From IMG/VR virus record IMGVR_UViG_3300036859_000658, positions 1 to 40,508 of that record: a stretch of DNA of 40,508 nt. One strand, 5' to 3'. This document shows, one piece after another, positions 3,794 through 40,508 of the stretch. How positions within the stretch are numbered: the first letter of the stretch is position 1; each line of letters opens with the position of its first letter. Source of the DNA: a virus. The position numbers and the translations under genes are program-made. Under the pieces are notes generated by a model that saw only the letters and a program-made list of their open reading frames with translations, was not told the origin of the DNA and did not search any database.

Positions 3794-3821
3794 TTGACAT
3801 GTTTTGGTGTGTTTTTATATT
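3794..3821 (+). promoter_or_regulatory. near-consensus sigma-70 promoter
   Basis: TTGACA (3794-3799) is followed after 16 bp by TATATT (3816-3821). The predicted transcript start, about 7 nt downstream, falls within a few bases of an in-frame GTG at 3832, so a leaderless mRNA is possible. The promoter lies 27 bp after the integrase stop and reads rightwards. Confidence 0.7.
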
Positions 3822-3831
3822 CTGCACCCCT

Positions 3832-4398
3832 GTGAGCATCCAAGCAGTTTGCAGTCTGGAAAGCCTCAGCCCTCTTTCTTTCTCTAAACATTACGTCGTT
3901 CCCAAACTCCAGAAAGAAAGCCCCGCTGATTACGAGACACGTACCTGGAAGGAGAGAATGCACGTTGACGATAACGGCTTCATCTTCATCCCTCCAATGG
4001 CCTTCAAACTTTGTGTCGCGGACGCTGCGCGTTACTTGGGAACCAAGATCCCAGGCAGGCGCAATGCGACCTACACCAAACACTTTGAATCGGGAGTGTT
4101 GGTGCTCGATGCATTACCACTCGGCATCAAAAAAGAGGACGTCAAGGGCGAATGGCTGTTCGTACCAAGTGATGGTAAGCGGGGTGGCGGATCGAGGGTC
4201 GACAAATGCTTTCCGTTGATTCCGAAATGGTCTGGTGAAGTGACCTTCCATATCCTGGATCAGACGATTACCAAAGATATCTTTGAATTGACATTGAGGG
4301 AATCCGGCAACTTCATCGGTATCGGTCGATTCCGACCGCGGAACAATGGATTTTATGGACGATTCCTTCTTAAGAAATTGGATTGGATTGTTTCATAA
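3832..4398 (+). CDS. conserved-looking phage protein of unknown function
   Basis: The frame is open from 3754, but the promoter at 3794-3821 makes the GTG at 3832 the likely first start (188 residues). A second candidate is the ATG at 3958, with a strong AAGGAGAG site. The sequence SLSPLSFSKHYVVPK, then ETRTWKERMH and DDNGFIFIPPMAFK, and the C-terminal GIGRFRPRNNGFYGRF resemble a widespread phage protein group, recalled from memory, with a Gly-Arg-rich end. I do not know its function. It is not a recognisable Cas protein, although the terminal GxGRFRP loop looks nucleic-acid-binding. Confidence 0.7.
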   Translation: MSIQAVCSLESLSPLSFSKHYVVPKLQKESPADYETRTWKERMHVDDNGFIFIPPMAFKLCVADAARYLGTKIPGRRNATYTKHFESGVLVLDALPLGIKKEDVKGEWLFVPSDGKRGGGSRVDKCFPLIPKWSGEVTFHILDQTITKDIFELTLRESGNFIGIGRFRPRNNGFYGRFLLKKLDWIVS

Positions 4399-4399
4399 A

Positions 4400-5240
4400 A
4401 AAGCTCGACAGGGCCCGGTCTGGTGGGGCAGGGAATGGCAGGTTGAGGTAAGACAATGTCCGGCCGGGCAAGGTAAGGCAAGGATTATTTGTTCGATCGA
4501 TCTCGGGTCAGGCTGGGCTTGGTAGGGCAGGGCTCGGCTGGGTCGGGTTGGGCGTGGCTTCGTCTGGTTGGGCTAGTCGTCGCACGGTTCGGCATGGCAG
4601 GGCGAGGCATGGCAAGGAATTTTGATTTTCACGGTGCGGTCTAGTATGGCAGTGCGCGGCAGGACTACGTGGGGCAACGTCAGGTTCGGCTGGGTATGGC
4701 AAGGATCTTGATTTTCTACGGTGCGGTGCGGCTCGGCAGCGCATAGCATGTTGGGGCTGGGTCAGGCACGGCCCGGTCAGGTTGGATGAGGCGAGGAAAA
4801 GATTTTGGTCCGGCTGGGTTCGGCATGTTGCGGCCAGATTTGGTCAGACCAGGCAGGACTAGGTTCGGTGAGGCAAGGGAATTGATTCCTAGGCTCGGCC
4901 CGGTTTGGCATGGCCAGGTAGAGCACGGCTGGGCAACGCCGGGTGCGGCAGGATAAGGCAAGGATTATTTTTGATTTTCATGACTCGGCAAGGCGGCGCG
5001 GGGTTGGGTTCGGCAGCGCCGGGTAGGGTCGGGTTAGGTAAGGCGAGGCGAGGGCATTTTTCAGGGCGTGGTCCGGCTCGATCGGGTTGGGCAGCGCTGG
5101 GCATGGTCCGGCTTGTCAAGATCGGGCAAGGTTTGGTAAGGCAAGGGTTTTAATTTAGGGCTTGGTGGGGCTCGGTGCAGTTCGGCGTGACTGGGCGGGG
5201 CTTGGTATCGCAAGGTAAGGCAAGGAATTCTCTACGAGGT
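4400..5240. repeat. degenerate tandem array, about nine units of about 90 bp in a GGYNN pentamer rhythm
   Basis: The plus strand is written largely as GGYNN pentamers (GGCAA, GGCTG, GGTCG, GGCAT) for over 800 bp. Each unit closes with GGCAAGGAWT or a close variant plus a short T-rich stretch such as TTTTGATTTT. Unit ends are near 4478, 4612, 4700, 4790, 4874, 4958, 5047, 5140 and 5221, mostly 82-93 bp apart. GG every 5 bp makes two-tier G-quadruplex or helically phased structures possible. Open frames across it on either strand are low-complexity artefacts. It separates the integrase region from the early genes. A replication or partition site, a structured RNA or a packaging signal are all possible; none is shown. 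Confidence 0.85.
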
Positions 5241-5248
5241 TCCTTCCT

Positions 5249-5806
5249 ATGATTGGTGCAGTATCCCGCTTTCCAGAATGGAAAGCTCTTTATGATGCAA
5301 TTCTGCCGCTAATTCAAGGCGGCCAAACAGCTTTTGGTTACGAGGAACTCGACGCATTATCCGGGCTCGATATCCGTAGTGATCGAGGCCGCGGCCAGTT
5401 CTACCGCTTCCGCCGCGAGCTGCTCAAGGTTCATCAGCTCTGGATGGAAAACATTCCGGGATCCGGCTACATCATTATTGATGCCAAGGATCAGCCGCAT
5501 GCTGCGTTTAAACGGGTCAGATCGGCGCGTCGCAAAGTCAACATGGCGCGCGCCATCAATAGCAATGTCCGGATCGAGGACCTCACACCGGAACAACGTC
5601 TCCTCCAGGCCGCTACCTCCGCGGTCCTGCATGAGCTGTCCAAGACCTTCCACTCCGTTGGCCATAAGTTCCACCTGGCAAGCAAAGAAGCCCTGAAGCT
5701 TCCAGTCGATTTGCCGAAACTCATAGAGTCAATCGCCAACAATAAGGAGCCAGAGAAACCCGCAAGGAAAGATGCCATCATAGTCCGCAAGGAGGGGCCA
5801 ACGTGA
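5249..5806 (+). CDS. hypothetical protein, 185 residues
   Basis: The ATG has GAGG about 11 nt upstream and is the first start after the repeat block. Residues 1-70 look like a winged-helix-type domain (ALYDAILPLIQGGQTAFGY, then ELDALSGLDI and QFYRFRREL). The middle (KRVRSARRKVNMARAIN) is basic and the C-terminus is charged. It could bind DNA or have a role in replication or regulation. No named family is recognised. Its stop overlaps the next start by 4 bp. Confidence 0.7.
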   Translation: MIGAVSRFPEWKALYDAILPLIQGGQTAFGYEELDALSGLDIRSDRGRGQFYRFRRELLKVHQLWMENIPGSGYIIIDAKDQPHAAFKRVRSARRKVNMARAINSNVRIEDLTPEQRLLQAATSAVLHELSKTFHSVGHKFHLASKEALKLPVDLPKLIESIANNKEPEKPARKDAIIVRKEGPT

Positions 5807-35270: not shown

Positions 35271-36356
35271 ATGACGGGCCAATCTCAGCAAATCCAAACT
35301 CCACCGAAATTAAATTCGCTCGAGCCAATTCCTGTGTTACGGCCGCCTTCCGACTGGAAGGCTCCAGGCTATATCCGGATCGACCGTGATCATCTATACG
35401 CCCTGGCGCGACGTTGCTCCGGCCAGATGCTCGCCATGGCCCTGCTGATTGAGGACCGGAGCCGCTCCTTTCCGGGTTCGCCGGAATGGGCGGAAATCTC
35501 CAACCAGGAATGGAGAGCCTTGACCGGATCTTCCGACCGGGCGAACGAACTAAACCTCAAGCGTCTGGAATCCAGCGGTATCATGGCCCGCCAATCGGAT
35601 AAGCGAGGGCACCGCGGCGGATACCGGCTCCGTTATGAAAACTTCGAGTCCTCCCCACTGCCGGCGCCACGAACGCATGAGTGTAAACCACGAGGCTCTA
35701 CCGCGGAACTCCGCGAGCAAATGCCTGTTGCTGCTCTATATAGCGAGCGAGCGAAATTAATTTCGGTCGAGACGGCGGATGGTCGAGCGAATTTAATTTC
35801 GCTCGACGCGAATTCCGATGCGGTCAAACAGGCGATGAATTGCGCTCAACCGGGTGGCTGTCCTTTACTTTCTTTAGCAGGTAACAGTGGTATCAGTCAG
35901 TCAGTCTCCAGCGAAAGAGAACCACCTAGACCGACTGACACTTCTCCTCCCCACGAACCAGAACCGGATGATGGGCTGGATGCACTCATTGAGAGGGTGG
36001 CGCAAAAAATCCGGCCAAAGAACGCCGACATACCTGCTGAACAGCCGGGGCCTAAACTGCGCCCCATGATTCGCATCGCACTCGCCCGTACTCCCCTGCA
36101 TCGTCTGGAATATCTGGCACAGCAACGCATGAAGCCGGGGGACTCTCTCGGCCTTTTGATCAAACTCGCAGAAGAAGCCAATCAGGTTTTCAATCAACAA
36201 CAACGGCAGATCGAACTTGCCGAACAATCCACAGAGCAGAAGAAAATCGAAGGCTGGAAGGAATTGATCGATAGCAACGCTGAGACGCCGGAAGCCAAAA
36301 AGATCGCGCGAGAATGCTTACGAAACCGGGGAATCGAGTATCCTTTCCTGGAATGA
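35271..36356 (+). CDS. replication initiator-like protein with internal iterons
   Basis: 361 residues; AGGAG is 4-5 nt before the ATG. Residues 30-125 (WKAPGYIRIDRDHLYALARR, then WRALTGSSDRANELNLKRLE and GYRLRYENF) look like a winged-helix domain of phage replisome organisers. A Pro/Ser-rich linker and a helical C-terminal domain follow. Palindromic iterons within the gene (35304-35324, 35749-35806) imply that it binds DNA inside its own coding sequence, as lambda O does. Family assignment is by resemblance only. The stop overlaps the next start by ATGA. Confidence 0.65.
   Translation: MTGQSQQIQTPPKLNSLEPIPVLRPPSDWKAPGYIRIDRDHLYALARRCSGQMLAMALLIEDRSRSFPGSPEWAEISNQEWRALTGSSDRANELNLKRLESSGIMARQSDKRGHRGGYRLRYENFESSPLPAPRTHECKPRGSTAELREQMPVAALYSERAKLISVETADGRANLISLDANSDAVKQAMNCAQPGGCPLLSLAGNSGISQSVSSEREPPRPTDTSPPHEPEPDDGLDALIERVAQKIRPKNADIPAEQPGPKLRPMIRIALARTPLHRLEYLAQQRMKPGDSLGLLIKLAEEANQVFNQQQRQIELAEQSTEQKKIEGWKELIDSNAETPEAKKIARECLRNRGIEYPFLE
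35304..35806. repeat. palindromic iterons inside the initiator gene
   Basis: Related copies occur at 35304-35324 (CCGAAATTAAATTCGCTCGAG), 35749-35770 (GAGCGAAATTAATTTCGGTC and flank) and 35783-35806 (arms TCGAGCGAA and TTCGCTCGA around TTTAAT). The third is the best symmetric site. They are in frame and code for RAKLIS and RANLIS. They are a candidate origin of replication bound by the encoded protein. Confidence 0.7.
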
Positions 36357-38322: not shown

Positions 38323-39605
38323 GCCGAAACGCCCTTGAGGTTCCCCGCGCTCGCGACTTGCACGCCGAGACGACCCTCAGAGCATTCGCCCGCTGCGACC
38401 TTGAGCCGCACGAAGTCAATTGTCTCCGAACCAAACGCCGAAACGACCATTCACCCCAGGGCGAGGGGACCGAAACGATCCTGAGACTATCTACCCGCTG
38501 CGACGCGACCAGGACTTACCAATCACTATGTCGCCGAAACGACCCTGAGATTCCCTGCCCACTTTGACGATGCTTATGTAGCCGAAACGATCCTGAAACC
38601 ACTCGTCCGCGCATGAACGCTCCCCGCCGAGACGACCCTAAGAGCATCCTCCGCCCGCTGCGACTCCTGACGTAGACGTGGCCAAGCTCATGGGCTAATT
38701 GCCGAAACGACCCTGAGGTTCTCTGACCCCTGCGACAAGCCGTCGATGTACGTACCGTGGTGCGTGATGTACACGCCGAAACAACCCTGAGATTCTCTGC
38801 CCGCTGCGACACTCCATGGGATACGGCGAAGTAATCGTTCGTCCGACCGAAACGACTTTGAGATCCTCCGCCCGCTGCGAGGTAATTTGCAAGTCCCAGC
38901 CGGGCCAGGCGGCACCGCCGAAACAACCCAGAGGTTCCCCGCCCGCTGCGATCTTTTGGATCTCCGATGTACCGGTCAAATCCGGCGCCGAAACAACCCA
39001 GAGGTTCCCCGCCCATTGCGACCGCGCCTCGGCATTACGCACCCGTACCTGGTACAACTCGCCGAAACAACCCCAAGGCTCTCCGCATACTGCGACATGG
39101 AGCGTAACACCCAACGCGAAAAGGTCCGCCCTCGCCGAAACAGCCCTAGGATTCTCCACATGCTGCGACTCAATGCGACTCGGCACAACCTTTTTGATGC
39201 TTTCCGTGCCGAAACAGCCCTAGGATTCTCCACATGCTGCGACGCCTCAAAGATGCCCATTCCTGCGCCCGCATCGGCTGGCCGAAACAGCCCTAGGATT
39301 CTCCACATGCTGCGACAATGTCTGCCCCACCGTGGACATGGCCTCATCGGTGCCGAAACAGCCCTAGGATTCTTCGTGCACTGCGACCAGAGCGGCTTAC
39401 CAGGCCGGCGCCCTGCTTGGGCCGCCGAAACAGCCCTAGGATTCTTCGTGCACTGCGACCCGCCAGAGTTCGCAATCACTACCGGCAGCAGCGGGCGGCC
39501 GAAACAGCCCTAGGATTCTTCGTGCACTGCGACCAGTTTTCGATATTTGCGGATCCATATTTCTATCTTGCCGAAACAGCCCTAGGATTCTTCGTGCACT
39601 GCGAC
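38323..39605 (-). CRISPR. CRISPR array of about 20 repeats with graded repeat decay
   Basis: Repeats are 36 bp. Read on the minus strand they begin GTCGCAG and end GTTTCGGC. Starts on the plus strand are 38323, 38364, 38437 (remnant), 38469, 38533, 38581, 38626, 38701, 38775, 38846, 38917, 38987, 39061, 39134, 39208, 39281, 39352, 39424, 39498 and 39570. Spacers from 38665 rightwards are 34-38 bp; left of that several are cut to 6-28 bp. The last four repeats are identical and the three before them form a second identical block. The older ones diverge mainly in the middle and then lose bases, so the leader lies on the right (39606 onward) and transcription should run leftwards, in the same direction as the effector gene. 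The terminal 11 nt of each repeat can fold as a 4-bp stem with a UUU loop touching the spacer. No adaptation genes are visible, so acquisition would have to rely on host Cas proteins. Confidence 0.95.
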
Positions 39606-39942: not shown

Positions 39943-40508
39943 TTAGCTTGGGTTCTCAGGCTCCGTCAACTTTTCCTCAGGTGTCAACTCTTCCTCAGGT
40001 GGTCCATGCACCGTCAGTTCGATTCCGGCCTGATCGCATTTCTGAGCGAGCAGAGCACGCAGCTTGAACCACGGCAAATCCCATTCGCCCCGTTCATTAT
40101 CGTCGTATTCGATGGCAGCGAAACGGCGGCGCGAGGCATAGCCCACCAACTGCATGGTGATCTCATGCATGGCGCTGTCCATGCGGTCGCGGAACTTGCG
40201 CACGGCGGCCCGCCGGCGCGCGGCGAAGGAGGGAACGGGCCGGTTCTCGTATTTCGCATCGTCGCCCCACTCCTTGAGCCAGCGCTTGTGCTGTATGGCC
40301 CAGCGGCGAAGTTGCCGGCCGTTGTAATGCCATAGAGCCTCATCCTTCACGTTTATAGCCGTGAGCAAATTCTGTGGCGTGATGCGCACGCGTAACACAC
40401 CCTGAGCCCCCTGCGGGCCCGCGGGACGGGGCAGCCACGCTACCAGCTTCACCATCAGATTCTTGCCCCGCTGATAGATCGCCGCCTCGGCGCGCACTGC
40501 TTCCCCGC
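39943..40508 (-). CDS. miniature type V-like effector, C-terminal part (residues from about 218 to 405)
   Basis: This is the right-hand end of the gene that begins at 879 and overlaps it by 227 bp. After the RuvC-I-like strand comes an Arg/Lys-rich helical stretch (residues about 277-345; AARRRAAVRKFRDRM), like the bridge and RuvC helices of TnpB. It is followed by FAAIEYDD with Glu351 at the RuvC-II position and by LPWFKLRALLAQKCDQAGIE, which closely follows the family pattern FPWxxLRxLIxYKAxxAGI. The protein then ends in an acidic, proline-rich tail (PPEEELTPEEK). It has no CX2C ribbon and no RuvC-III NADxNAA segment. Two of the three RuvC acidic residues are therefore absent. The stop at 39943 lies 337 bp from the first CRISPR repeat on the same strand. 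Three residues differ from the left-edge copy (V/I, V/G, E/G). Assignment rests on motif order and CRISPR linkage. Confidence 0.72.
   Translation of the reverse strand, partial: GEAVRAEAAIYQRGKNLMVKLVAWLPRPAGPQGAQGVLRVRITPQNLLTAINVKDEALWHYNGRQLRRWAIQHKRWLKEWGDDAKYENRPVPSFAARRRAAVRKFRDRMDSAMHEITMQLVGYASRRRFAAIEYDDNERGEWDLPWFKLRALLAQKCDQAGIELTVHGPPEEELTPEEKLTEPENPS
40282..40508. repeat. terminal overlap with bases 1-227 (contig closes on itself)
   Basis: The first 127 bases are identical to bases 1-127. The remaining 100 carry about eight substitutions and no gaps. An exact match of 127 bp is a common assembly k-mer length, which points to circular closure with strain variation beyond it. Both versions keep the effector frame open. 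A true diverged second copy of the gene just outside the window is the less likely alternative. Confidence 0.8.

Follow-up and report, generated by a model that had tools for sequence, protein, structure and literature searches.

What function does a long stretch of GG-rich pentamers serve in a phage genome when it carries no protein-coding frame? We address this question for the window, by which we mean the whole 40,508 nucleotides of the IMG/VR record IMGVR_UViG_3300036859_000658, and in particular for the block at 4404-5232. A sequence-only reading had described this block as a non-coding run of GGYNN pentamers in about nine units of about 90 bp, all on one strand, and had suggested selection for a physical property such as stacked G-quadruplexes or phased protein contacts, not for a code.

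Rhythm and layout of the block

The 5-bp rhythm is real. The lag-5 identity of 0.468 in 4404-5232 lies 11.8 standard deviations above 500 dinucleotide-preserving shuffles, and the GG-to-GG spacing at lag 5 gives z = 11.6. All multiples of five from 10 to 40 are raised, with z = 7.8-10.4 at lags 10, 15, 20 and 25. Near 90 there is no sharp autocorrelation peak in the block (z = 1.9 at lag 92). A phase-aware parse resolves nine units of NNGGY pentamers with T-rich breaks between them. The length of 90 bp is approximate only: the unit ends are spaced by about 81-92, in one case by about 133, and the phase is not carried over from one unit to the next. The figure of 90 bp is therefore a unit length and not a period. 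The block starts at about 4404-4410, directly after the preceding gene's stop codon, rather than at 4400. The units contain 14-17 pentamers, with 23 in U2, and a T-rich break of about 7-19 nt comes after each of them. The boundaries of U1, U6 and U7 were placed by eye; the parse merged U6 and U7, and we put the split at the T-rich break. The units, labelled by the role that we argue for below, are as follows.

4410-4484, plus strand: putative vrRNA unit U1, 15 pentamers (parse)
4504-4618, plus strand: putative vrRNA unit U2, 23 pentamers (parse), possibly two fused or overlapping guides
4631-4705, plus strand: putative vrRNA unit U3, 15 pentamers (parse)
4718-4797, plus strand: putative vrRNA unit U4, 16 pentamers (parse)
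4805-4879, plus strand: putative vrRNA unit U5, 15 pentamers (parse)
4890-4964, plus strand: putative vrRNA unit U6, 15 pentamers (parse)
4980-5054, plus strand: putative vrRNA unit U7, 15 pentamers (parse)
5063-5147, plus strand: putative vrRNA unit U8, 17 pentamers (parse)
5157-5226, plus strand: putative vrRNA unit U9, 14 pentamers (parse)

Across the nine units GG is present in 113 of 145 pentamers and GGY in 103 of 145. The column entropies are 1.92, 1.97, 0.64, 0.60 and 1.33 bits for N, N, G, G and Y: both Gs are almost invariant, the fifth position is chiefly C or T and the other two are near-random. At their 3' ends the units carry one to three pentamers with AA or GA as the free dinucleotide. 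There is thus a constant type of ending, as had been noticed, with GGC(A/G)AGG(A/G) as the actual last pentamers and not always GGCAAGGAWT. The T-rich tails are partly alike, with TTGATTTTC shared by U2, U3 and U6. Neither the block nor its tails matched an Rfam family, and BLAST of the block against annotated phages returned no match. A coding role was ruled out by 5-10 stops per frame in all frames of both strands, in agreement with the earlier description.

The genes beside the block and the VIPR system

The block lies between two genes on the same strand and downstream of a near-consensus promoter candidate.

3794-3821, plus strand: near-consensus sigma-70 promoter, predicted for the vipr operon (TTGACA-16-TATATT, 11/12 in a consensus scan)
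3832-4398, plus strand: vipr gene, GTG start, 188 aa, RAMP fold, G-rich loop GIGRFRPRNNGFYGRF; start set by homologues
5249-5806, plus strand: vap (vipr accessory) gene, 185 aa, helix-rich, N-terminal half winged-helix-like; family of the SUSP1 accessory protein ALH47068

The promoter ends only 10 bases 5' of the vipr GTG (window 3794-3834), so the predicted vipr mRNA may be leaderless.

These gene names are taken from VIPR (Viral Interference Programmable Repeat), first reported in a bioRxiv preprint of April 2026 (PMC13142463). As described there, the system is made up of Vipr, which is a RAMP protein encoded by the phage, the accessory protein Vap and a set of guide RNAs called vrRNAs, and is directed at rival phages and satellites. 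Each vrRNA is described as having 9-16 YNNGG repeats followed by a 3' tail; GGY is conserved and NN hypervariable, and it is the NN pairs that bind DNA, with one target base skipped (PMC13142463). The features listed there as characteristic are a Vipr of about 20 kD with an RRM core, a G-rich loop and a thumb, a structured conserved 3' tail, and arrays that adjoin vipr in long intergenic stretches (PMC13142463). The system of Escherichia phage SUSP1, which gave target-specific and reprogrammable repression, is classed there as type II with a vap1-type accessory gene (PMC13142463).

The protein encoded upstream of the block fits this description. Its AlphaFold2 model has a mean pLDDT of 92.9, and the best PDB fold matches found with Foldseek are a type VII Cas7 (E 3.6e-8) and Csm3 (E 6.8e-7). 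Judged by the modelled fold, the window Vipr is a RAMP protein, and such proteins line up on guide RNAs. Its family aligns to the SUSP1 Vipr with E 1.9e-10 over 168 columns (hhalign), and a family HMM built without SUSP1 matches the SUSP1 Vipr with E 6.1e-14 in a one-sequence search. The G-rich loop is conserved across the homologues. A tblastn search with the window Vipr gave no match. For the downstream protein, a family HMM that likewise left out SUSP1 matches the SUSP1 Vap with E 2.1e-14 (one-sequence search), placing the accessory gene in the same family as that of SUSP1; a PDB fold search returned weak winged-helix matches only.

Sequence pattern, gene homology, fold, operon order, strand and linkage were all observed in this analysis. 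The window combines a RAMP protein of the 20-kD class (188 aa) carrying a G-rich loop, YNNGG tracts, an array beside vipr and a vap gene, and SUSP1 (KT454805) shows the same pattern adjoining its vipr. Since pattern, protein, accessory gene and layout all agree, we assign the block to VIPR as an array of vrRNAs, and we are highly confident of this assignment. Two features sit less easily with it. U2 with 23 repeats, and also U8 with 17, exceed the published range of 9-16, and the window tails, at 7-19 nt, are short and resemble one another only in part, as against the structured tail of SUSP1.

Both phages have a Vipr RAMP protein with a G-rich loop, a Vap of the same family and, within the same operon, intergenic sense-strand YNNGG guide tracts with 3' tails. 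They differ in layout, the window having nine packed units with short T-rich tails between vipr and vap, whereas SUSP1 has one unit upstream, three downstream and long structured tails. The two Vipr proteins are only remotely similar, and the loop of the window Vipr has an insert (RPRNNGFYGRF, compared with RPRFGRF in SUSP1). With the backbone proteins of class 1 CRISPR systems (type VII Cas7, type III-A Csm3) the window Vipr shares the RAMP fold, the glycine-rich loop and, by homology, the lining of an RNA guide. Unlike them it is one small protein without a surrounding cas operon, and its guide has no CRISPR repeats and is gapped every 5 nt. The block resembles a CRISPR array in lining up variable guide tracts that are flanked by constant parts, but its constant element is a 3-nt core within each pentamer and not a separate repeat.

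Linkage of arrays to vipr and variation of the core

The search for the same rhythm in other phages, which had been proposed as a check, was productive. An exact scan of IMG/VR for eight consecutive GGYNN pentamers found more than 119 stretches, the longest of which are diverse arrays like the window block and not simple repeats. Many of these arrays have a same-strand neighbour gene ending in G(I/V)GDxRPxxGRF or a close variant, and 3832-4398 is its counterpart in the window. A pattern scan of genome contigs was dominated by simple pentamer repeats, nearly perfect and lying in long open frames, and we did not use it as evidence. With the window Vipr as query we found 62 relatives, and a core-free detector of the 5-nt rhythm, calibrated on 162 other places in those contigs (threshold, 99th percentile), finds a pentamer array adjoining vipr at 60 of the 63 homologue loci. 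The vap family lies within 3 kb of vipr in 50 of the 63. In the nearest relative, L241 (80% Vipr identity), the array has the same form and no unit has more than 40% of its NN pairs in common with the window. In some other relatives (L004 597-1232, L284 4824-7000, L270 5500-8000) conserved spacer repeats with apparent hairpins, seen by eye, part the units, so that each guide there would be a constant part plus a variable tract.

The strand specificity that had been noticed in the window extends to the family: GGY blocks within 1.5 kb of vipr number 50 in the sense and 0 in the antisense orientation, and they are 35-fold denser there than elsewhere (0.254 against 0.0072 per kb). Arrays restricted to the sense strand are expected of an RNA, and we therefore reject the helical-phase DNA element that the earlier reading had entertained. 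The same evidence bears on whether phased DNA-binding sites make the block an origin, a partition site or a packaging site. Such a site would suit the position of the block between the integrase and the early genes, and the distant location of a replication-O-like protein (35271-36353) was also counted in its favour. Strict sense-strand linkage to vipr, arrays on both sides of vipr in many phages and a core that varies among phages all oppose it, and we give this explanation hardly any credence.

Within the Vipr subfamily the core is GGC/GGY at 39 loci, GAC at 7, CGC at 7 and CTC at 3, with a few unclear. Examples of arrays beside Vipr homologues with a core other than GGY are as follows.

GAC core: L256, L257, L279, L287
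CGC core: L269, L288, L293, L297
CTC core: L290, L294

These variants decide against stacked two-tetrad G-quadruplexes, or another selected property of a G-rich strand, as the reason for the rhythm. G4 prediction does find 85 overlapping two-tetrad pattern matches in the window block, but where the core of a homologous array is GAC, CGC or CTC the 5-nt rhythm persists, and the motif occurs in 0 of 17 such arrays (70-nt segment tested). A G-quadruplex is thus excluded as the property that the arrays share, and as an account of the block it is extremely improbable. What is borne out from the earlier reading is selection for the 5-nt rhythm, and the block probably does make phased protein contacts.

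The first base of the core may be set by two Vipr residues. Position 111 is V in 35 of 35 G-core proteins and L, M or C in 8 of 8 C-core proteins, and position 127 is F in 35 of 35 and Y in 7 of 8, respectively; L262 was put in the C class and L286 in the G class by eye, with L264 left out, and some overfitting has to be allowed for since both positions were chosen as the best of all columns. The best tree needs six changes, and the sister pair L297/L299 (SH-aLRT 100) differs in the core and in both residues. Only two changes are forced by well-supported branches, so a sign test is not significant. We see an even chance that in this subfamily, whose members share 44-80% identity with the window protein, the core switched several times, with its first base set by residues 111 and 127 flanking the conserved loop. 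The correlation is a lead and not a result. For some of the seven VIPR types the preprint speaks of "a related consensus" (PMC13142463).

Proposed mechanism, targets and significance

By analogy with the published system, RNA production, binding, the skip rule and repression may be expected of the window system too (PMC13142463), the skip rule and the repression coming from this single preprint. The unit of vipr, array and vap would probably be transcribed from the promoter at 3794-3821, and each NNGGY tract of about 70-85 nt with its T-rich tail would become, or be cut into, one guide RNA. Copies of Vipr would line up on this RNA, each gripping one pentamer by its GGY; we infer one copy per pentamer ourselves. 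The two free bases of each pentamer would then pair with double-stranded DNA matching NNxNNxNN, one target base being skipped at each step, and the complex would sit on and repress a gene belonging to a rival phage or a satellite, with Vap strengthening the repression. The statement that the block was selected "not for a code" runs contrary to the preprint, where the hypervariable NN pairs themselves form the code (PMC13142463).

We searched for targets in several ways. For U1, U3, U4, U5, U6 and U9, exact seeds of 8 pairs (16 bases) under the one-skip rule gave no target in IMG/VR, and the matches extend no further than chance. No target was found for any of the nine units within the window phage or the collected loci. 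A comparison of 411 units with 2.6 Mb of these loci at skips of 0-3 gave nothing above shuffles except mostly self-matches at skip 3. Target scores for U3 and U6 were discarded, as the loci had been chosen by their own seeds, and a match of 20/28 for U9 in the integrase of the same phage loses significance once the number of tests is taken into account.

If the skipped base falls on the wobble position of a codon, the NN pairs are predicted to resemble codon positions 1-2. In the linked loci (n = 1574; both strands mixed, handle pentamers left out) the NN spectrum correlates with codon positions 1-2 at r 0.70, with 2-3 at 0.41 and with 3-1 at 0.06, and bootstrap intervals of the likelihood differences exclude 0. 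The window's own spectrum (n = 109) has no preference for positions 1-2, so this support holds for the family and not for the window array.

The codon signal also bears on whether the array might be a mere binding platform for the RAMP protein, a sponge or autoregulatory leader in which the NN pairs drift freely and read nothing. The lack of a natural target for the guides searched and the location of the arrays within the vipr operon, beside its genes, would both suit such a platform. A freely drifting NN spectrum is expected to be neutral, whereas that of the linked loci follows codon positions 1-2 of phage genes, and repression by the SUSP1 system is target-specific and reprogrammable (PMC13142463). 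We consider the platform very unlikely, and prefer the guide array.

The same genome carries a second system of interest. A CRISPR array at 38364-39605 (minus strand) contains a 36-nt repeat (GTCGCAGTGCACGAAGAATCCTAGGGCTGTTTCGGC, with variants) no fewer than 16 times, with spacers of mostly 34-38 nt, and its repeats decay toward the low-coordinate end. Beside it a Cas12f/Cas12u3-like effector is split over the contig ends at 1-879 and 39943-40506 (both minus strand), and the 1-879 piece matches the PADLOC Cas12f with E 2.9e-8. The contig ends 1-227 and 40282-40508 overlap with 219 of 227 bases identical, which points to a genome that is probably either circular or terminally redundant, its join varying between strains. 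Two RNA-guided systems, VIPR and a small type V-like CRISPR system with its Cas12f-like gene and array, are therefore found in one 40-kb genome.

VIPR as a kind of system has been known since April 2026 (PMC13142463). New here are a member with nine packed units, a clade that is widespread in uncultivated phages, the family-wide codon-position signal in NN and the presence of a Cas12f-like gene and CRISPR array in the same phage; the correlation between residues and core base may also be new. The gene content and array form of VIPR are thereby supported independently, from the raw sequence of a different phage group. If the relation between residues and core is true, the core grammar of VIPR would itself be evolvable and could yield orthogonal systems.
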